40,701 bases of DNA from an uncultured Gammaproteobacteria bacterium (GTDB lineage Bacteria; Pseudomonadota; Gammaproteobacteria; Pseudomonadales; Azotimanducaceae), in assembly GCA_913043815.1 (NCBI GenBank), contig CAJWNY010000019.1:1-40701 (forward strand), in the 5' to 3' direction. The notes beneath the pieces are model-generated. The model saw nothing but the letters and a program-made list of their open reading frames with translations. It had not been told where the DNA came from and did not search any database. Below, in pieces: positions 18,177-29,952 of the stretch. The first letter of the stretch is position 1. Every line of letters starts with the position of its first letter. Position numbers and translations under genes: made by a program.

Positions 18177-18303
18177 GATACTATCTCAATGTAAGCAAAT
18201 TCACTAGATATACACATAGCCGATGCTAAAAACGGCCCGACGAAACAAGATTTATTTTGGTCTTAAACCATTAGCCTATTTCCTAGTAAAAAAGAGCCTT
18301 TTC

Positions 18304-19398
18304 ATGCAAGCAACCCAGACAACGAAGAACGGTTTTTTACTTATCAATTTGGGTACGCCTAAATCGCCTTCGGTTAAAGATGTGCGAGAGTATCTGGGTG
18401 AGTTTCTTATGGACCGTCACGTCCTAGACGTGCCATGGTTTTTACGCAAAATCATTGTCAGTGGCTTTATTCTGCCATTTAGACCAAAGGGCAGCGCAGA
18501 AGCTTATAGCAAAATTTGGACGAAGGAAGGGTCGCCTTTGTTGGTCAAAAGCCAAACATTAGCTGACAGCTTAGAATCTGCACTGGGAGAACCCGTAGTC
18601 TTAAGCATGCGCTATGGCAGCCCAAGCATTCCCGATGGCATACAGGCGCTTAAAACACGTGGTGTCGATAACGTATGTATTATCCCGCTCTACCCGCAGC
18701 ACGCCGACTCTACAATTACTACCTCCATCGAGGCTGCTGTTGGCGCGTTGCCAGACGGGATGTCCTCTTTTGTCATGCCTCCTTTTTACAAGAAACCACA
18801 ACATGTTAAAGCGTGGGGCGAAGTTATTCGCGAGAACCTACCTGAGAAGTGGGACCACTTATTATTCAGCTACCACGGCTTACCTGAACGTCACCTAGAA
18901 ACCGCAGACCCAACTAAAAAACATTGCTTGAATTGCGACGACTGCTGCGCTGTGCCGTCACCTGCCCACGACACCTGTTATCGGCACCAAGTTTATGAGA
19001 CGTCTAAGGAAATCGTTAAATATCTGGGGATGCGAGACGACCAATACGGCGTGAGTTTTCAATCTCGATTGGGACGCCTGCCTTGGCTTACTCCCTATAC
19101 CGACAAGGTACTAGAGGCGCTTCCAGAAAAAGGCATTAAAAATGTTGCAGTGGTTTGCCCCGCTTTTGTCGTGGACAACTTGGAGACACTGGAAGAAATG
19201 GGCATGCAGGGTCACGAGACATTTATGGAAGCAGGCGGTGAAACTTTTACCTTGATTCCGTGCATTAACGACAATCCTGTTTGGGTAGAGGGCCTAGCTG
19301 AATTATGCCGCAAGGAGAGCATCGCTAACGCTTCCTCTTCCTCTTCCTCTTCCTCTTCCTCTTCCTCTTCCTCTTCCTCTTCCTCTTTAACAGTTTAA
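18304..19398 (+). CDS. hemH: Ferrochelatase with internal cysteine cluster and poly-serine tail
   Basis: A 364-residue ferrochelatase that inserts Fe(II) into protoporphyrin IX, the last step of haem synthesis. FLLINLGTPKSPSVKDVREYL starts at residue 11; catalytic H191 lies in SYHGLPERH; E294 in DNLETLEE is the second conserved active-site residue. Cysteines at 208, 211, 214, 215 and 225 form a cluster just after the SYHG segment; similar internal clusters in some bacterial ferrochelatases bind [2Fe-2S]. The protein ends in 18 consecutive serines (344-361) plus Leu-Thr-Val, encoded by a hexanucleotide repeat; typical relatives stop near residue 340. I chose ATG 18304, with AAGAG upstream, over ATG 18223, which adds 27 residues unlike the family. 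Confidence 0.93.
   Translation: MQATQTTKNGFLLINLGTPKSPSVKDVREYLGEFLMDRHVLDVPWFLRKIIVSGFILPFRPKGSAEAYSKIWTKEGSPLLVKSQTLADSLESALGEPVVLSMRYGSPSIPDGIQALKTRGVDNVCIIPLYPQHADSTITTSIEAAVGALPDGMSSFVMPPFYKKPQHVKAWGEVIRENLPEKWDHLLFSYHGLPERHLETADPTKKHCLNCDDCCAVPSPAHDTCYRHQVYETSKEIVKYLGMRDDQYGVSFQSRLGRLPWLTPYTDKVLEALPEKGIKNVAVVCPAFVVDNLETLEEMGMQGHETFMEAGGETFTLIPCINDNPVWVEGLAELCRKESIANASSSSSSSSSSSSSSSSSSLTV
19332..19385 (+). repeat. Hexanucleotide tandem repeat (TTCCTC)x9 inside hemH
   Basis: Nine exact copies of TTCCTC run without a break at the 3' end of hemH. Read in frame they alternate the serine codons TCC and TCT. Loss or gain of units keeps the frame, so copy change would alter only tail length. 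The lack of any imperfect unit suggests recent expansion by slippage. Confidence 0.97.
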
Positions 19399-19452: not shown

Positions 19453-20316
19453 CTAATCGCCCTCTATCTCACCGGCTAACCGAGAAACCTCGTTATAGAA
19501 AGAACGTACTAACTCCTGAGAAAACATAGACTTTCGGGCGACAAACCTGACCGGTCTAGTTAGTCCAGACTTATCTAACTCAAGGATTTTATCCTTAGGC
19601 ACTGACAAAGTCCGTGCCACACCCACCGGGACCAGCCCATGACCGAATCCGGAGAGGGCCATTTGCGCCACCGCGAAAAAGGATTCCAAAGACGCTATCC
19701 TATTGAGATTCATGTGTTGCATATTTTCCTCAATAGACCCCCAAGCACCAGAACGCGATTCAATGGTCATCACATCTAAAGCATCCCCGTTTTTGTACTT
19801 CAGTGCACCAAGCCCAGAGGGAATAATCACCATCGGTTCTTGACGAATAACCTCGGATACCAAATCAGAATCCGCATCTGGGCTACCCGTACAAATACCC
19901 ACCATATATTCACCGGAGCGCAGACGGTCAAGGACCACCGGTGAACGTTGAGCGTGAAATTCAAACTCAACGCTGGGCATTACATCACGCACTTTAGAAA
20001 ACAGATCTGAGCCCCAACTCGCCAAAATAGCCTCTGAAACGCCAAGAATAATTTTACCTTTACGTAAGGCGTTATCTTCTAAAAACACACTGCGAAGTTC
20101 AGACAACAGCGGTGTAACGCGCTCAACCAAACGGGTTCCGTGATGGGTGAGAACAACTCGGCGACCGTGCCGCTCTATCAGGTCCCGATCATAGTACCGT
20201 TCTAACGAAGCAATTCTTTTGCTTACCGCAGACTGTGAAATGCGGAGTGCGGTGCTAGCTTCCATCATAGTACCAGCCTTGGATAACGCGACTAATGTCT
20301 CTAGATTTTCTATCAT
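19453..20316 (-). CDS. LysR family transcriptional regulator
   Basis: A 287-residue LysR-type regulator. The N-terminal winged helix-turn-helix (about residues 1-60) reads LETLVALSKAGTMMEAST, then ALRISQSAVSKRIASLERYYDRDLIER, the usual recognition helix and linker start. The rest is the periplasmic-binding-protein-like effector domain, beginning at KIILGVSEAILASWG near residue 90. LysR regulators typically control a divergent neighbour and themselves; the divergent gene here encodes a TauE/SafE-type permease 83 bases away, with adjacent inverted repeats in between. The effector is unknown; a sulfur- or carboxylate-type compound would fit the permease family but is inference. Confidence 0.92.
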   Translation of the reverse strand: MIENLETLVALSKAGTMMEASTALRISQSAVSKRIASLERYYDRDLIERHGRRVVLTHHGTRLVERVTPLLSELRSVFLEDNALRKGKIILGVSEAILASWGSDLFSKVRDVMPSVEFEFHAQRSPVVLDRLRSGEYMVGICTGSPDADSDLVSEVIRQEPMVIIPSGLGALKYKNGDALDVMTIESRSGAWGSIEENMQHMNLNRIASLESFFAVAQMALSGFGHGLVPVGVARTLSVPKDKILELDKSGLTRPVRFVARKSMFSQELVRSFYNEVSRLAGEIEGD

Positions 20317-21244: not shown

Positions 21245-24200
21245 TTAAGTCGGTTTCACCACAAAGAGCAGATCTCCCGCATTGACCTGCTGGCCATCAC
21301 TTATATTCACCCGCGTTACTTGATAACTGCGATCAGGGTCGTAGACGACGCCACCTACGTTAAAGTCTTTCAGGGTTAGCGGATTAAAGACCTTCATAGC
21401 TTCCAGCTGACAAAGTGTTTCTGTTACGCTAATCTTCTGCCCCACTGCCACGTACTCTGGCTCTGAGGGCGACGGCGCGCTATAGAAAATTGCAGTCGCA
21501 GGAGATAACACCTTTAACTCATCACTGCCATCTATGCGCACTGCGTTGCTGTCAATGCTTTCACCCTTGCCACCACCATCGGACTCTATTTCATTTATCA
21601 ACGCTTTTATATCAATGCGCTGTAACATCTCAGGCAGATAATTGGTGTCGTATATGCCTTTACGAAAGACTTCATCAGCAAGAATCATGCGTAATAATGG
21701 AATATTGGTGCAAATTCCAGTGATCACCACTCGACCTAAATAGTCGATTAGCTTGTCAGCGGCTGCATCTCTTGATTCCGCATGCACCACCAGTTGAGCA
21801 ACCATGCTGTCATAATATGGGGAAACAAATTTGCCCGGCCCTACAGCTGCAATAATCTCAACACCTTCTTCTTCGGGGAATATACATTCCTCTATCTGCC
21901 CGGGATGCGCACGAAAAATTACTTCGCCACCAGCTCGTACCACTAATCGCTCGGCAGTAACTCTGGCTTCAATAGAATAACCATGGTCGGTGATCTTGAG
22001 GTCCGCAATCGATTCGCCAGAGGCGATTCTAAATTGTTCTGCAACAATATTTACCCCAGAAGTCCATTCTGTAACCGGGTGCTCTACTTGCAAACGTGTA
22101 TTCATTTCCATGAAATAGACTGCGTTTGAACGCAAGTCGTAAATAAACTCCACGGTACCGGCGCCAACGTACCCCACTTCATCCGCTATATCTGCGGTTG
22201 AGCGTAAAACAGTGGCGAGTAAGTCGTTGGGCAGCATGGTTGAACCAGACTCCTCAATAACCTTTTGCTTATCGCGCTGAACACTACAGTCTCTAATACC
22301 TAATACCCGCGTGTTGCCGTGTGTATCACGCAACAATTGAGCCTCAATATGACGCAGCGAGGTAACATATTTCTCTAAATAAACATCACCGTTACCAAAA
22401 GCGCTGCGTGCTTCAAGCCCTACACGGTAAAAAAGTTGTTCGAAATCTTGAGGGCCTTCTACAACTTGAATACCTTTTCCGCCACCGCCGTGAACGGCTT
22501 TAATGAGAATTGGATAACCAATATCGAGCGCAACTTCTGCCGCCCGCTCTACGTTAGTCATAATGCCATGGCTACCGGGCACAACAGGCACCTTCAACCT
22601 TAGAGCGGTATTAATCGCATTAGACTTGTTACCCATAGTCTCCATGCTGGAGACTGGCGGCCCAATAAAGTTAATCCCTCTGCTTCGCACCAATTCTGCG
22701 AAACCTGAGTTTTCAGAGAGGAAGCCGATTCCTGGGTGTAGACTATCGACGCCTTCATTTTCGGCTACGTTCAGCACACTCTTTGCGTTCAGATAACTTT
22801 CATCTGGTGTGTTACCACCAATACATACAACGGTATCTTGTGGTCGCAACTGATCTACAGCCGTGGACTCCATGTCAGGATCACTTTGCACCAAGACAAC
22901 GTCTATATCTTGCTGCTGCGCAATACTAATCAGTTTTGCAGCAGTACAACCTCGAGCATGTATCAGTACCTTACGTGTTGGACGAATCAACTCTTCCTCT
23001 GTAATGACAGATCTCTGAGCCACCACTATGGGAGTTTGTTCCTCTAAACCGCCTGACAAAATCCCAGCAATAACCCCTTCTACTGAATTCTTTGGGTGAG
23101 GTATTTCGGCGTCTACTTCAGCTAGATTTTCCTCTAGTTCTGGATAAAACGGATGCTTAACCAAACCCTGCATCGAACCGGGAGTGACAGACAAATAGTT
23201 CGATAAAATAGACTTCAAAGGCAAGTTTGAAGAAACAACAATTTGCCCCGCAAAAGGCATGCTTGTACCTGAGAAATAGTAAGTCTGAACCAAAGGATGA
23301 GTTACAAAACTTGCTTGCGCGCCACCCGTGCAATCCCCGTAGCCAAAAATAATAACCGGCAGATCGTGATCTCTAACAAATCGTGTAATTCGGTCATTTA
23401 CAGCAGCCATTGAAAATAACGCGCCTGCACCTTCTTTAGTTTGCATACCACCAGAGGATATGAAACAAACCACTGGCAAACTCTGCTCCGCACACTCTAC
23501 TAATAAGCGGCAAACCTTCTCAGCGCTAGCCATATCAAAAGCCCCGGCCTGGAATTGCACGTTCGAGATGACTACGCCAACACGAGGATTAGCGATGGCG
23601 CCTTCGTTAGTCTCTTTTAACTCCCCAATCCCGGTGATAACACCACAAGGCGGTAAATTATTATTTAATGCATTCTCGATAGAAAGTCTAAAGCCGGGAA
23701 ATGAACACGGATCAGAACTGAGCAAATCATCGTAGCGACTTTCCCATTGATCAAAATACCGATCAATAATTTCTTGGTAACCAAACTTATTGTTAGCTTT
23801 AACTTTGCGCAAAACGCCCTGCATTTGCAGATCATTATAGGCCATGTTCAAGCGGTTCCAAAAATCTTTTCGACGTCCAATATTGCGCGGCGTAATACGC
23901 CCTTGATAACTCTTACCACCTCTTTCAGCCACCACATAGGAGTTAAGTAGCGTACCAAAGAAATAAGTCACAATAACAAACAGAGCGTCAGCCAAGTGCG
24001 CGAAGCTTAACTTCTTCCACTCTTCTATTATGCGGAAGAATTCGACACCTTTAGGCATCTTCAATATGCGCTGATACCAATCAAATAACTGGCTTTTCAG
24101 CGCGGCCTGATCGATCGCATCGGCTACTGGAATTTTCAACGACACGCCCGCCGCAGACAAGGAGTTATCTATCAATTTCTCAGCGCTTGCAAATGAAAGC

Positions 24201-26098
24201 ACCTGATCTGTTTGGGCTTCATGGGCTATGGTTTCTAAACGACCAATGGCTTCATCATAAAAGGCATCAAACAAGAGTAAATTTTCGCACTCCTTGATGA
24301 AGTCATGACGCAACTCTTCATTGAGTAGCACATCGAGAATTGTCATATCTGCCAGCGCAATGGGCTCAACGCCACTAGCGAGGGCTTCTATCATTCCCTC
24401 CGACAGGGCGACCAAATAACTTCTGTTCGTCTTAACATCTGAACCATCACCACCATCTACGAGGCAGGGACCAGTAATGAGCATGTTCAACTCAGCGGTC
24501 AATTGCTTTGCAACAAACGTATCCGAAAGGCCAGCCACGGTCTGTTTAGCAAGGAGCTTTTTACCCTCATAAGAAAAACGTTCCAGCAGCAACGATTGCA
24601 AGTTAGGGTTATTTGCTGCCATTTCAAGTAATGCTCGAGGACTCTTAACGTCCGTAATTTGCAAAATATGACGAGTATCTTCGTGCGTCTCTAGGTAACT
24701 CTTAAGCGACTCTAAATTCCACGCAGCTTCCTTTTTCCAGCGGTTATAAAGGAAGGCCCCTACCGTCGAAAGAATATTATTTCTCGCCAACTCGTAGTTC
24801 TCTTTGGGCTCACCAAAGATCATTTGAGCAATACGGCCGCGCTCGTCGTTCATAGCTTGGCGCTTATCCGTGTAATTGCGCCACGCTTTAGAGAGCGGTT
24901 CGTCGTAAACGACTTTATCTGGATCTTGCAACCAATAAAGAAAGGTTTGGCGACGCTCGCGATCGGCGCGGATATGCAATTCACCAGAGGGGATCTCTTG
25001 GCTGGCTAGACGACCATATTGTTGAACACTGGTTGCTTTTATGCGCTTGCGCACCTGCAAGTAGCGCAGGTACCTATAAGCAATACCAAAAACGTTGACA
25101 TATTCTGTTGGGTTTCTTGTCAGAGTCAGTGAAGCGCTGTTTTCCATTGCCTGCAATTGGCTCGAGGGCTTCAAGTACCGCAAGAGGCTTTGCTTATAGT
25201 GATCCAAAATATATGGATTTTCTGCGACAAAGTCTTTGGTCAAGTTTTCAATATTTACAATACTGCCGACCAATGCACTGCGCAGTTTTTCAATTTGCTG
25301 CGGAGGATCATTTGGGCTGTAGTCAACAATGGCATCGATATTACCCTGAGCATGCAGCTCAGGCGCTGACAAGCCAACATACTTTGCACACTCCTGCCAG
25401 GATAAGTTTAGCCGCCTAGCAATATTCGCCAAACCAGCAGGTTGTATAGTACTAAATACACCGTCGCGCAGGCAGAGTATCAAATTACTTGCTGCCAAAG
25501 GTATGGCGCCGCCAGAATACCCTACGCCATAAATGACACCTACGGTGGGTACATCGACGTTGCTCATTTCAGCAATGAGACGGCTGATGCTGTGGGCTTG
25601 ATTATTCGCATTGGCTTCTTCGCCTGCGTCAGCTCCTGGGGTGTCCATAAAACTGACTAGCGGAATGGCTCTGGCGGAGCAATATTCTGCGAAAGATGCG
25701 GCACGCAAATGATGCTGAGGCATCCAACTGCCTTTTTCACTAGATCTGTCCTGGGCAATAAACCCTACAGGTCTTTTCCCCCCGGTCGGGAAATCCATTA
25801 GAAGCACAGCTTGATAAAATGGGCCTAGGCTGTCCTCTTCTATCACTTTGCCCAATTGTCTAATTGTTAATGGCGCGGATTCGCGACCTTGGGCTTCGGC
25901 GGGAGCAACAACCGCCTCTATATAGGCATCTATATCAAGCGCGGAGAGTCTGTCGTTTAGTTGTTCAATTTCGTGTTTCGACAATAACCCAGGGACGGGT
26001 TGATCCTCTTGCTTGATGTCAGGAAACGATGAAAAGTCTTTTGCTAGGTTCTCGGCAATGAAAAAAAGTCTATCACCTTCAATGAGCTGTTTTTGCAC
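21245..26098 (-). CDS. Single-chain acyl-CoA (acetyl-CoA-type) carboxylase, CTalpha-CTbeta-BC-BCCP
   Basis: A 1617-residue biotin-dependent carboxylase carrying all activities on one chain. Residues about 90-270 match AccA (VSFMDTPGADAGEEA, GVGYSGGAIPLAAS). Residues about 340-790 match nothing I recognise. Residues about 815-1010 match AccD (FISSGGMQTKEGAGALFSM, GDCTGGAQASF, MPFAGQIVV) but lack its zinc-ribbon cysteines. Residues about 1040-1490 are biotin carboxylase, with the ATP-grasp loop HGGGGKGI (1203-1210) and EMNTRLQVEHPVTEW (1331-1345). Residues about 1528-1617 are the biotin carrier, with LEAMKVF and biotin-accepting K1569. Acetyl-CoA to malonyl-CoA is the natural guess, but propionyl- or longer acyl-CoA is possible. 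GTG start at 26098 has no clear ribosome site; an in-frame TAG lies 9 bases upstream, so the chain cannot begin earlier. Confidence 0.88.
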   Translation of the reverse strand: MQKQLIEGDRLFFIAENLAKDFSSFPDIKQEDQPVPGLLSKHEIEQLNDRLSALDIDAYIEAVVAPAEAQGRESAPLTIRQLGKVIEEDSLGPFYQAVLLMDFPTGGKRPVGFIAQDRSSEKGSWMPQHHLRAASFAEYCSARAIPLVSFMDTPGADAGEEANANNQAHSISRLIAEMSNVDVPTVGVIYGVGYSGGAIPLAASNLILCLRDGVFSTIQPAGLANIARRLNLSWQECAKYVGLSAPELHAQGNIDAIVDYSPNDPPQQIEKLRSALVGSIVNIENLTKDFVAENPYILDHYKQSLLRYLKPSSQLQAMENSASLTLTRNPTEYVNVFGIAYRYLRYLQVRKRIKATSVQQYGRLASQEIPSGELHIRADRERRQTFLYWLQDPDKVVYDEPLSKAWRNYTDKRQAMNDERGRIAQMIFGEPKENYELARNNILSTVGAFLYNRWKKEAAWNLESLKSYLETHEDTRHILQITDVKSPRALLEMAANNPNLQSLLLERFSYEGKKLLAKQTVAGLSDTFVAKQLTAELNMLITGPCLVDGGDGSDVKTNRSYLVALSEGMIEALASGVEPIALADMTILDVLLNEELRHDFIKECENLLLFDAFYDEAIGRLETIAHEAQTDQVLSFASAEKLIDNSLSAAGVSLKIPVADAIDQAALKSQLFDWYQRILKMPKGVEFFRIIEEWKKLSFAHLADALFVIVTYFFGTLLNSYVVAERGGKSYQGRITPRNIGRRKDFWNRLNMAYNDLQMQGVLRKVKANNKFGYQEIIDRYFDQWESRYDDLLSSDPCSFPGFRLSIENALNNNLPPCGVITGIGELKETNEGAIANPRVGVVISNVQFQAGAFDMASAEKVCRLLVECAEQSLPVVCFISSGGMQTKEGAGALFSMAAVNDRITRFVRDHDLPVIIFGYGDCTGGAQASFVTHPLVQTYYFSGTSMPFAGQIVVSSNLPLKSILSNYLSVTPGSMQGLVKHPFYPELEENLAEVDAEIPHPKNSVEGVIAGILSGGLEEQTPIVVAQRSVITEEELIRPTRKVLIHARGCTAAKLISIAQQQDIDVVLVQSDPDMESTAVDQLRPQDTVVCIGGNTPDESYLNAKSVLNVAENEGVDSLHPGIGFLSENSGFAELVRSRGINFIGPPVSSMETMGNKSNAINTALRLKVPVVPGSHGIMTNVERAAEVALDIGYPILIKAVHGGGGKGIQVVEGPQDFEQLFYRVGLEARSAFGNGDVYLEKYVTSLRHIEAQLLRDTHGNTRVLGIRDCSVQRDKQKVIEESGSTMLPNDLLATVLRSTADIADEVGYVGAGTVEFIYDLRSNAVYFMEMNTRLQVEHPVTEWTSGVNIVAEQFRIASGESIADLKITDHGYSIEARVTAERLVVRAGGEVIFRAHPGQIEECIFPEEEGVEIIAAVGPGKFVSPYYDSMVAQLVVHAESRDAAADKLIDYLGRVVITGICTNIPLLRMILADEVFRKGIYDTNYLPEMLQRIDIKALINEIESDGGGKGESIDSNAVRIDGSDELKVLSPATAIFYSAPSPSEPEYVAVGQKISVTETLCQLEAMKVFNPLTLKDFNVGGVVYDPDRSYQVTRVNISDGQQVNAGDLLFVVKPT

Positions 26099-26165: not shown

Positions 26166-26678
26166 ATGAAAAATATGACAAAAATCACCTGTTCCGTACT
26201 GACTATTTCCGACACACGCACATTCAAAGATGACAAGTCTGGAGACCTGTTGATCCAGTACATCAGCGACGCTGGACATGATGTGCACAATAGACAAATT
26301 GTAAGAGATGATATCTATGCGATCAGGTCCATGGTTTCACAGTGGATCGCCGCGCCCGAAGTGAACGTTATTATTACGACAGGCGGTACCGGATTTACTG
26401 GCAGAGACAGCACCCCCGAGGCGCTTAAGCCATTGTTTGACAAAGAAATTGAGGGCTTTGGAGAATTGTTTCGACAAATTTCTTTTGGTGAAATTGGCAC
26501 CTCTACCATTCAATCAAGGGCCACAGGGGGACTGGCGAACGGCACTTTGATTTTTAGCCTGCCAGGATCATCTGGCGCAGTAACCACAGGCTGGACAAAA
26601 ATTTTAGCAACTCAGCTAGACATCACTTTTCGCCCTTGTAACTTCGCCGAACTAATACCGCGTTTTAAAGAGGTCTAA
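26166..26678 (+). CDS. moaB: Molybdenum cofactor biosynthesis protein B
   Basis: A 170-residue MoaB/MogA-fold protein, acting in the adenylylation step that precedes molybdenum insertion into molybdopterin. The family landmarks are CSVLTISDTRTFKDDKSGD at the start, VIITTGGTGFTGRDSTPEAL in the middle (the TTGGTG and D-S/T-P-E motif that binds molybdopterin), and SLPGSSGAV near the end. I chose ATG 26166; the longer frame from 26013 would overlap the divergent carboxylase gene and adds an unrelated leader. The ribosome site is weak. A molybdoenzyme that could use the cofactor, MsrP, is encoded at 34609-35529. Confidence 0.9.
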   Translation: MKNMTKITCSVLTISDTRTFKDDKSGDLLIQYISDAGHDVHNRQIVRDDIYAIRSMVSQWIAAPEVNVIITTGGTGFTGRDSTPEALKPLFDKEIEGFGELFRQISFGEIGTSTIQSRATGGLANGTLIFSLPGSSGAVTTGWTKILATQLDITFRPCNFAELIPRFKEV

Positions 26679-26882: not shown

Positions 26883-28043
26883 ATGAGCGAATCTATCTAC
26901 ATTCTTGGTGCGGCACGCACCCCAGTCGGCAGCTTTCAGGGCAGCCTTGCATCCCAATCTGCCCCTGAGCTTGGCGCCCACGCAATTGCAGCGGCACTGG
27001 TCAATGGACAGGTGAAGGCTAGTGAAATCAACGAAGTTATTATTGGCAATGTAGTCAGCTCCGCCTTAAAACAAGCACCCGCTCGTCAAGCCATGCGTAT
27101 GGCTGAACTGCCTGACAGCTGCGCTGCAACAACAATTAACAAAGTTTGTGGCTCGGGTATGAAAGCAACCATGTTGGCTATGGACTTAATTAAGGCTGGT
27201 AGCGCCAATATGGTAGTCGCCGGCGGCATGGAAAGTATGAGTAATGCCCCCTATCTAGTTGCTAAAGCGCGAACTGGTTTGAGAATGGGCCACGCTGGCA
27301 TGTTCGATTCGTTGTTTACGGATGGCTTAGAAGACGCAGAAACTGGCGGTTCAATGGGGTCTTTTGCACAAAACACCGCTGACGAGCACCAACTGACTCG
27401 AGAGGCTATGGATGCTTACGCTATTGAATCTGTAAGCAGAGCACTCGAGGCCATTAAAAACAAATCGTTGGCATCTGAAATTGCCGGTATAGAAATTAAC
27501 GGCATCATGGTGGGAGACGACGAGCAACCGGGAAAAGCTAAGATCGATAAAATCCCCAACCTACGCCCTGCATTTAAAGCAGACGGCACTATCACCGCTG
27601 CAAATGCATCATCAATATCTGATGGCGCTTCGGCACTTGTGCTCACCAAAGAAAGCAATCTTGCTGGACGAGCCCCTTTGGCGCAAATTGTTGCCCATGC
27701 GACACACTCTATTCACCCTAGCGAATTCACCTTGGCGCCAATTGGCGCAATTGAAAAACTGCTAGAGAAAACCGGTTGGGATTTAGACAGCGTTGACCTA
27801 TTTGAAATCAACGAAGCTTTCGCAATGGTGACTATGCTGACCTCCCAATCTTTAGGCCTGGATCCAGCTAAAGTTAACGTATTCGGCGGCGCTTGCGCAC
27901 AAGGTCACCCTATTGGCTCCACTGGCAGCCGACTGATAGTGACTCTTGCTCACGCGATGAAAAATCAGGGCAAAAAACGCGGCATTGCTGCACTGTGTAT
28001 TGGCGGCGGCGAAGCTACCGCAGTAGCGTTAGAACGAAACTAA
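26883..28043 (+). CDS. Acetyl-CoA C-acetyltransferase (biosynthetic-type thiolase)
   Basis: A 386-residue thiolase of normal length with an intact active site: nucleophile C89 in INKVCGSGMKA, the NEAFA loop, H342 in CAQGHPIGSTGSR, and the second Cys C372 in LCIGGGEA. It condenses two acetyl-CoA to acetoacetyl-CoA or performs the reverse cleavage; the GMESMSNAPY stretch is typical of acetyl-CoA acetyltransferases such as AtoB or PhaA. ATG 26883 has an AAGGA ribosome site. fabY follows 37 bases downstream, so the two are probably one transcription unit. It contrasts with the degenerate thiolase-like protein at 6710-8167. Confidence 0.93.
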   Translation: MSESIYILGAARTPVGSFQGSLASQSAPELGAHAIAAALVNGQVKASEINEVIIGNVVSSALKQAPARQAMRMAELPDSCAATTINKVCGSGMKATMLAMDLIKAGSANMVVAGGMESMSNAPYLVAKARTGLRMGHAGMFDSLFTDGLEDAETGGSMGSFAQNTADEHQLTREAMDAYAIESVSRALEAIKNKSLASEIAGIEINGIMVGDDEQPGKAKIDKIPNLRPAFKADGTITAANASSISDGASALVLTKESNLAGRAPLAQIVAHATHSIHPSEFTLAPIGAIEKLLEKTGWDLDSVDLFEINEAFAMVTMLTSQSLGLDPAKVNVFGGACAQGHPIGSTGSRLIVTLAHAMKNQGKKRGIAALCIGGGEATAVALERN

Positions 28044-28080: not shown

Positions 28081-29952
28081 TTGAGTCAATTAAGTAATAA
28101 TAGTCGATTGCCTATAATAGTTGGATGCGGCGGCGTGAATTCCGCCGGCAGAGTGTCGTTCAACAATAGTTATCGACGCATGGTCATTGACTCTTTGCCC
28201 GAAGCGCAACAAGACGCCACATATCTGAGCCTAGCACAAATGATGGGGTTAGACCCCAAAAGTGCTTCTCAAGATACCCAACGAAAATACATATGCGACC
28301 ACACCCTGGTTCGGCGTATCGAAAACTTCGACCCCGAGAGAGTCTACTGGCAGTCTAGTGCGCAATTAAAAGGCGAAGGCAGAAACGCAGTTAGTTTTGT
28401 GCTGGCAAAAAAGCAGTTGCCCGTTGAGATTCCCCAGTCTTGGGAAATCAAAGCGCTTAACGACAGAGACGTACTAATCACCGCCACTGAACCGCTCAGC
28501 GTCATGTTGCCAGACTATAGACCGTCTAAAGTTACCAGCGCGGGACAGCTCCCTACAGGATTCGATCCTGCAGCCCTTTACCAAAGTCGTAACCACCCTC
28601 GCGGGCTGCAAATGACAGTCTTTGCAGCATCCGACGCACTAAGATCAACAGGCTTTACTATCCCCGAGTTAAAGACCTTGTGCCGTCCTGACCAGTTCGC
28701 GGTTTATTCAGGGTCTGCCATGGGGCAATTAGACGCCGAATCTTATGGCGGACTAATGCAGAATTCGCTGATGGGCAAACGCCCAAGCTCTAAGCACGTA
28801 GCTCTTGGGTTACCAGAAATGCCGGGGGACTTTGTCAATGCCTATGTGCTCGGTTCCGTGGGTGAAACGGCCGGTATCATCGGCGCCTGCGCAACATTCC
28901 TTTACAACGTTAAAAGAGGGTTAGACGAAATCAGGTCTGGCAACAAGCGTATAGTCGTTGTCGGCAATTCTGAGGCTCCTATAGTCGCCGGAGTAATAGA
29001 AGGTTATCGCACCATGGGCGCACTGGCAGAAGACGAAGCGTTAATGGCCCTGGATGGTTCTGCCACCGTCGACAACCGCCGTGCATGCCGACCCTTTTCC
29101 TCTAACGTGGGCTTTACCGTTGCTGAGTCTTCTGTTTGGATCGTGTTAATGGATGACGAACTTGCTATGGAGAGTGGTGCTCGAGTTCTAGGTTCAGTTG
29201 CAGATGTAGCTGTTAATGCAGATGGCTATAAAAAATCTATTCCAGGCCCCGGCATCGGTAACTACGTGACCGTCGCTAAAGCTATGGCCACTGCGCGCGC
29301 GATCCTCGGCGAGCAAGGCCTGCGCCAGCACACCTACATGCAAGCACATGGTACTGGCACGCCGCAAAACCGAGTCACTGAGTCGCAAATTCTTAATAAA
29401 CTCGCCGCTAATTTCGGCATAGACAAATGGCTAGTAAGCGCAATTAAATGCTATTTAGGTCATTCGATGGCGCCAGCAGGCGGCGACCAACTCTCGGCAA
29501 TATTGGGTGCATGGGAAGACGGCCTGATACCGGGCATAAGCACAATTGACCACATTGCAGACGATGTAGAACAGAGTAATCTGCACTTTCCCATGAAGCA
29601 CGTGGCACATGCGCCAGAAGCCATGAAGGGGGCATTCATTAACTCCAAAGGGTTTGGCGGAAATAATGCCACTGGGCTATTTTTGTCGCCGTACCAGACA
29701 CGCTCGATGTTAGAGCAACGCTGGGGCAAAAAAGCCTATTCAGCATTTTGCGTAAAACAAGAGCAAGCAGAGACTAATGCGCAAAGCTATAACAATGTGG
29801 CGGACAGCGGATCTATTCCACCTATTTACAAATTTGGAGAAGATGTTTTAAGCGGAACCGATTTAACAATTAACCCGAATGAAATTCACATACCGGGTTT
29901 TGGTAAACCAGTGTCGTTAGACGCAGAAAATCCTTTTGAGGATATGATTTAG
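28081..29952 (+). CDS. fabY: Beta-ketoacyl-ACP synthase, FabY class
   Basis: A 623-residue condensing enzyme. It starts LPIIVGCGGVNSAGR, then FNNSYRRMVIDSLP and TLVRRIENFDPERVYW, a long N-terminal section that I recognise from the FabY class described in Pseudomonas aeruginosa (PA5174), where it starts fatty acid synthesis by joining acetyl-CoA to malonyl-ACP. The KAS I/II-type Cys-His-His triad is C270 (IIGACATF), H423 (QAHGTGTPQNR) and H461 (CYLGHSMAPAGG), with K456. The start is TTG 28081, with AGGAAA about 5 bases upstream. Its neighbours, a thiolase just upstream and the single-chain carboxylase divergently beyond moaB, fit supply of its substrates. Confidence 0.88.
   Translation: MSQLSNNSRLPIIVGCGGVNSAGRVSFNNSYRRMVIDSLPEAQQDATYLSLAQMMGLDPKSASQDTQRKYICDHTLVRRIENFDPERVYWQSSAQLKGEGRNAVSFVLAKKQLPVEIPQSWEIKALNDRDVLITATEPLSVMLPDYRPSKVTSAGQLPTGFDPAALYQSRNHPRGLQMTVFAASDALRSTGFTIPELKTLCRPDQFAVYSGSAMGQLDAESYGGLMQNSLMGKRPSSKHVALGLPEMPGDFVNAYVLGSVGETAGIIGACATFLYNVKRGLDEIRSGNKRIVVVGNSEAPIVAGVIEGYRTMGALAEDEALMALDGSATVDNRRACRPFSSNVGFTVAESSVWIVLMDDELAMESGARVLGSVADVAVNADGYKKSIPGPGIGNYVTVAKAMATARAILGEQGLRQHTYMQAHGTGTPQNRVTESQILNKLAANFGIDKWLVSAIKCYLGHSMAPAGGDQLSAILGAWEDGLIPGISTIDHIADDVEQSNLHFPMKHVAHAPEAMKGAFINSKGFGGNNATGLFLSPYQTRSMLEQRWGKKAYSAFCVKQEQAETNAQSYNNVADSGSIPPIYKFGEDVLSGTDLTINPNEIHIPGFGKPVSLDAENPFEDMI

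Follow-up and report, generated by a model that had tools for sequence, protein, structure and literature searches.

Which enzyme is encoded by a single reading frame that carries the parts of a carboxylase in the order CTα-CTβ-BC-BCCP (α and β carboxyltransferase parts, biotin carboxylase, biotin carboxyl carrier protein), and does it stand in for the canonical acetyl-CoA carboxylase (ACC), the enzyme that starts fatty-acid synthesis? The question arises from the window, a 40,701-nucleotide stretch of an uncultured Gammaproteobacteria bacterium (contig CAJWNY010000019.1), in which a first-pass annotation had described such an open reading frame (ORF) and taken it for a complete stand-alone carboxylase. 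We conclude with high confidence, on sequence evidence, that the gene encodes an ACC of the AccS/AccADCB type, which in this genus is probably the housekeeping enzyme replacing AccA, AccC and AccD. The architecture is not a new one: it is that of AccS/AccADCB of Shewanella oneidensis, which was published in 2024 (PMC11602165) and for which cryo-EM structures exist (PDB 9kkm, 9w4a). The ORF is uninterrupted from 26098 down to 21245 and is composed as follows.

21245..26098, minus strand: accADCB/accS-type gene, a single 1617-aa ORF with a GTG start at 26098
25199..25813, minus strand: CTα (AccA-like), residues ~96-300, GYSGGA motif; Pfam ACCA at 127-291 and phmmer matches to AccA
23714..25198, minus strand: middle region, residues ~301-795, mostly helical, with no Pfam family
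23099..23713, minus strand: CTβ (AccD-like), residues ~796-1000, GDCTGG motif, zinc ribbon absent; weak accD match and fold match to 9kkm
21632..22978, minus strand: BC, residues 1041-1489, matched by Pfam in pieces
21257..21511, minus strand: biotin carboxyl carrier domain, residues ~1530-1614, with biotin lysine K1569 in EAMKV

The order proposed from the letters alone is upheld by the Pfam and NCBIfam matches along the chain, by the predicted model and by its fold match, and it is indeed no simple rotation of the eukaryotic BC-BCCP-CTβ-CTα arrangement. The carrier domain is recognized at residues 1532-1613 (Pfam Biotin_lipoyl) and 1526-1615 (NCBIfam BCCP), and the NCBIfam accD match is weak (residues 829-933, 38.7 bits vs a cut-off of 317). 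The zinc-ribbon pattern, noticed as missing from the β part, is present in all five canonical AccD proteins tested and absent from 28/28 full-length fused ORFs including that of the window, a set picked by a length and motif filter outside which the full-length ORF of locus L049 fell. All 28 contain the GYSGGA, D[CT]TGG and MEMNTR motifs. The biotin site does read EAMKV, as had been pointed out, but its final residue is not diagnostic, as it varies among these ORFs (EAMKI in 13, EAMKM in 6, EAMKL in 5, EAMKV in 3 and EVMKM in 1). When the BC domain was aligned with the canonical AccC of genomes G204 and G030, ignoring a third row that was a spurious antisense ORF, 13/13 mapped AccC positions were identical; the E. 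coli AccC numbering and residue roles used for these positions are presumed ones. The domains and the intact BC residues support, at the sequence level, the view of a complete stand-alone carboxylase.

With phmmer, the protein reaches 1647 bits against 9kkm/9w4a, annotated as acetyl-CoA carboxylase multifunctional enzyme AccADCB. The alignment comes in two blocks, residues 8-471 and 582-1616, and skips the ~110 residues in between. Against the same chain, a protein of Shewanella algicola reaches 3031 bits. The title of 9kkm is that of an acetyl-CoA carboxyltransferase holoenzyme dimer from Shewanella oneidensis, and no paper describing it was found in the open-licence literature. A structure prediction, one of the checks suggested at the outset, was run for residues 85-1035 from 15 sequences (mean predicted local distance difference test 75.6, predicted template modelling score 0.64) and contains two mixed α/β regions separated by an almost all-helical stretch; its best PDB match is again 9kkm (E 3e-60), followed by AccA and AccD chains. 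The end-to-end match, the fold match and the conserved BC positions together argue for an AccS/AccADCB-type ACC.

Comparison with known carboxylases places the protein more closely. Shewanella AccS shares the A-D-C-B single chain over a near full-length match, and the Shewanella relatives at L053, L054, L055 and L058 likewise have no zinc ribbon; the middle region of the window protein is ~100 aa longer. PMC11602165 describes S. oneidensis AccS as a multiple-domain ACC with a domain order unlike that of eukaryotes, and an accADCB is mentioned in passing for Berkiella in PMC9803151. Canonical ACC (AccA, AccB, AccC, AccD) comprises the same four functional parts, with CTα and BC related to AccA and AccC, but as separate proteins and with an AccD zinc ribbon, neither of which applies here. 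The multidomain enzymes of eukaryotes and actinobacteria (e.g. SACE_4237, PMC6491548) are also single chains, but in the order BC-BCCP-CT; a eukaryotic-type fusion was rejected given this difference and the absence of the eukaryotic-type central domain family from the Pfam hits of 13 fused members (E<=0.01). Long-chain acyl-CoA carboxylase (PDB 4rcn) is another bacterial single chain, but again BC-BCCP-CT and with a continuous Carboxyl_trans domain; membership in that class was rejected, the best Carboxyl_trans stretch here being 108-204, as against 630-1099 in the long-chain enzyme of the same genome.

A phylogeny of the domains, also suggested initially, was computed for BC (111 rows, quick, LG+G4) and for CTα (50 rows, careful), both trees being unrooted and accompanied by a warning from the tool about long branches. 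The fused enzymes separate from canonical ACC in clades of their own: in the BC tree 29 fused rows form one supported group, which contains L056 (an interrupted copy) and L057 (a contig-edge fragment) as well, with gammaproteobacterial AccC outside it, and in the CTα tree a very long branch with full support sets 31 fused rows apart. The trees show no sign that the lineage of the window fused its own genes, and acquisition by transfer appears the likeliest origin.

The proposal to look for accABCD in the genome proved informative. Canonical accA, accD and accC each exceed the cut-off in 0/25 genomes of the genus, and accB does so in 22/25. The fused gene is found at E<=1e-100 in 22 of the 25 (own genome counted), and a C-terminal piece close to a contig end in G022 (L045) brings the carriers to 23; G007 and G024, 70 and 75% complete, are without it. 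Of 22 genomes from outside the genus, 17 have an accA and 18 an accD above the cut-off (an eighteenth accA, that of G036, is truncated at a contig end and falls short by <1 bit), and all four genomes without accA and accD (G043, G180, G293, G389) carry the fused gene. This distribution supports replacement of the canonical genes. The assignment as an ACC is also supported by the restored growth of a Shewanella accR mutant when E. coli accA, accD and accBC are supplied together, AccR being the activator of accS (both from PMC11602165). Across the class sample, the fused gene occurs in 6/369 genomes, own one counted. A search of contigs from named genomes gave 587 confirmed places, among the best 80 of which only L049-L059 look like AccS type by eye; of the 11 genomes behind the named loci, whose completeness is not given and two of whose loci contain only part of the fused gene, none has an accA above the cut-off and one has such an accD. 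In a metagenome-assembled genome labelled Desulfuromonadales (L056:5839-10423) the fused ACC is split into two adjoining frames of 792 and 732 aa, and canonical accD is also present. Viral contigs yielded no confirmed relative, and no plasmid record covered at least 80% of the query at one place. Plasmid pOXA436 (L009:4919-8772) bears an AccS fragment (residues 1-942), 98.5% identical to Shewanella sp. PS-2; beside it, near blaOXA-436, lies a LysR gene 87% identical to the one divergent from Shewanella accS.

In the reaction proposed, the BC domain would use ATP and bicarbonate to carboxylate the biotin on a C-terminal carrier domain, either that of its own chain or that of a dimer partner. 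Acetyl-CoA is the expected substrate from sequence: CTα scores 50-75 bits against AccA proteins vs 29 and 19 against two propionyl-CoA carboxylase (PccB)-type carboxyltransferases. CTβ scores 27-35 bits against AccD of Bacillota loci, and the five gammaproteobacterial AccD of the set do not figure among 70 of the 90 rows. The enzyme would presumably act as a dimer and be the main source of malonyl-CoA.

The genes around the fused gene are the following.

19453..20316, minus strand: LysR-type regulator (Pfam), co-directional with the fused gene
26166..26678, plus strand: MoCF_biosynth (MogA-like) ORF (Pfam), divergent; start at 26166 read by eye
26883..28043, plus strand: thiolase (acetyl-CoA acyltransferase family)
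28081..29952, plus strand: FabY-like beta-ketoacyl synthase, 617 bits to PDB 4cw4 'beta-ketoacyl synthase'

All four accompany the main copy in 5/5 congeneric loci with long flanks. The MogA-like, thiolase and ketosynthase genes are kept in L049, and the ketosynthase, thiolase and LysR genes in L051; the remaining 12 of the 19 loci examined, Shewanella included, have none of the four. FabY is the name that we take to fit the ketosynthase. In Shewanella the LysR regulator AccR is divergent from accS, whereas that of the window is co-directional and ~22% identical to it; the divergent AccR-type regulator, absent here, is a trait of the Shewanella context and not of the enzyme. The Discussion of PMC11602165 mentions a second LysR-type regulator without known role, which the window's regulator may be. 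Further along, a ferrochelatase-like ORF (18223-19398) has a long tract of serines at its end, encoded by a TCTTCC-type repeat.

Two more fused copies have telling surroundings. The most divergent one, in G030 (L033:2695-10610), is preceded on its own strand by fabA-, fabB- and fabV-like genes, where the FabV-like product passes its cut-offs, the FabA-like one of two and the ketosynthase none; this genome also has canonical acc genes. In G006 (L034:1771-12346 and L168:8154-11849) a paralogue (57% identical) is divergent from two ORFs, presumably a propionyl-CoA synthase (pcs-like, 1815 aa) and, beyond it, a malonyl-CoA reductase (mcr-like, 1231 aa). They match 6eqo at 1951 bits and 8hi4 at 1067 bits, entries whose titles name only an acetyl-CoA synthetase and a short-chain dehydrogenase/reductase; the longer ORF also matches a CoA ligase, a hydratase and a crotonyl-CoA reductase, which likewise suggests propionyl-CoA synthase. 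A pcs-like gene occurs in 1/38 genomes. A 1157-aa ORF beside the paralogue was wrongly considered as malonyl-CoA reductase, and on the opposite flank ORFs resemble bacteriochlorophyll genes by eye. The FabY-like neighbour in 5/5 loci, the fab-like genes preceding the G030 copy and the pcs/mcr-like context in G006 are further support for an ACC.

Several observations weigh against this assignment. The source genome is 90% complete and many congeners are incomplete, so that the absences are provisional; both the fused and the canonical systems occur in G030 and G204; CTβ resembles AccD only weakly; PccB-type carboxyltransferases match the model at ~1e-5; and the source genome contains other carboxylases. 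These are a second single-chain enzyme of long-chain type on contig C21 (L145:624-3989, minus strand; 4rcn, 1094 bits) and, on contig C9 (L043:3656-7862), a cluster of a 448-aa BC, a 73-aa BCCP-like, an enoyl-CoA-hydratase-like and a 517-aa carboxyltransferase ORF. Either could supply most of the malonyl-CoA, leaving the fused protein a true but secondary ACC, and the long-chain enzyme of Pseudomonas/Mycobacterium is active from C2 to C16 according to the Saccharopolyspora-enzyme paper (PMC6491548). We judge this improbable, as it leaves unexplained the fused gene in all four distant genomes without canonical accA and accD. Somewhat less probable still is the earlier suggestion of an acyl-CoA carboxylase for a substrate other than acetyl-CoA, in favour of which the diverged, ribbon-less CTβ and the PccB-type matches can be cited; the ribbon is absent too from the Shewanella fused proteins, where accS is described as encoding an ACC (PMC11602165), the best CTα scores are to AccA, the canonical genes are missing from the genus, and genes of the fatty-acid and 3-hydroxypropionate kinds lie close by. 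That an assembly or sequencing error joined separate genes, a concern given the fragmentation of the source assembly into 133 contigs, can be dismissed, since one stop-free frame of at least 1610 aa recurs in 17/25 genus genomes, Shewanella isolates share the single frame and the solved protein (9kkm) has the same layout.

What remains unusual in this case is a conserved orphan AccB. The 22 genus genomes with accB contrast with 0/4 of the distant genomes having only the fused system, and with S. oneidensis, where biotinylated bands were those of AccS and LiuD only (blot in PMC11602165). Inspection of 21 of the 22 loci (G004 left out) placed the gene as follows.

L044:3337-3810, minus strand, and L147-L166: orphan accB of the genus, between aroQ and prmA

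No AccC-like ORF lies beside accB in any of the 21 stretches, whereas accB and accC are paired in 4/4 outgroup loci. The prmA gene adjoins it in 21/21 and aroQ is beside it in 20 (missing in L147, ~850 bp off in L166), and the biotin site ESMKM is intact in 21/21. Orphan accB is under purifying selection: ten selected pairs gave nonsynonymous divergence (dN) of 0.02-0.17 and synonymous divergence (dS) of 0.29-1.82 (one saturated), with dN/dS ~0.05-0.19; prmA is of similar order, often somewhat lower. A role as carrier for the C9 cluster was considered and weakened by the BCCP-like ORF which that cluster has itself (L043:5138-5359). It is conceivable, although we hold it rather doubtful, that the orphan AccB has a job outside the classical complex and that the second fused copy of G006 serves a 3-hydroxypropionate route. 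A foreign single-chain ACC would then have displaced AccA, AccC and AccD, leaving AccB alone at its ancestral aroQ-prmA place, to be charged in trans by the BC of the fused enzyme or by another BC; alternatively, it could be a sensor of biotin or lipid synthesis.

The single-chain ACC is a rare bacterial design, extended here to a whole further gammaproteobacterial genus, in which the fused gene is the only recognizable four-part ACC found. The case shows how a fused protein, with a domain order peculiar to it, takes over from an essential multi-subunit enzyme. Whether a biotin carrier can have a function independent of ACC finds a natural test case in the orphan AccB, and through its paralogue in G006 the family is tied to carbon-fixation-type chemistry.
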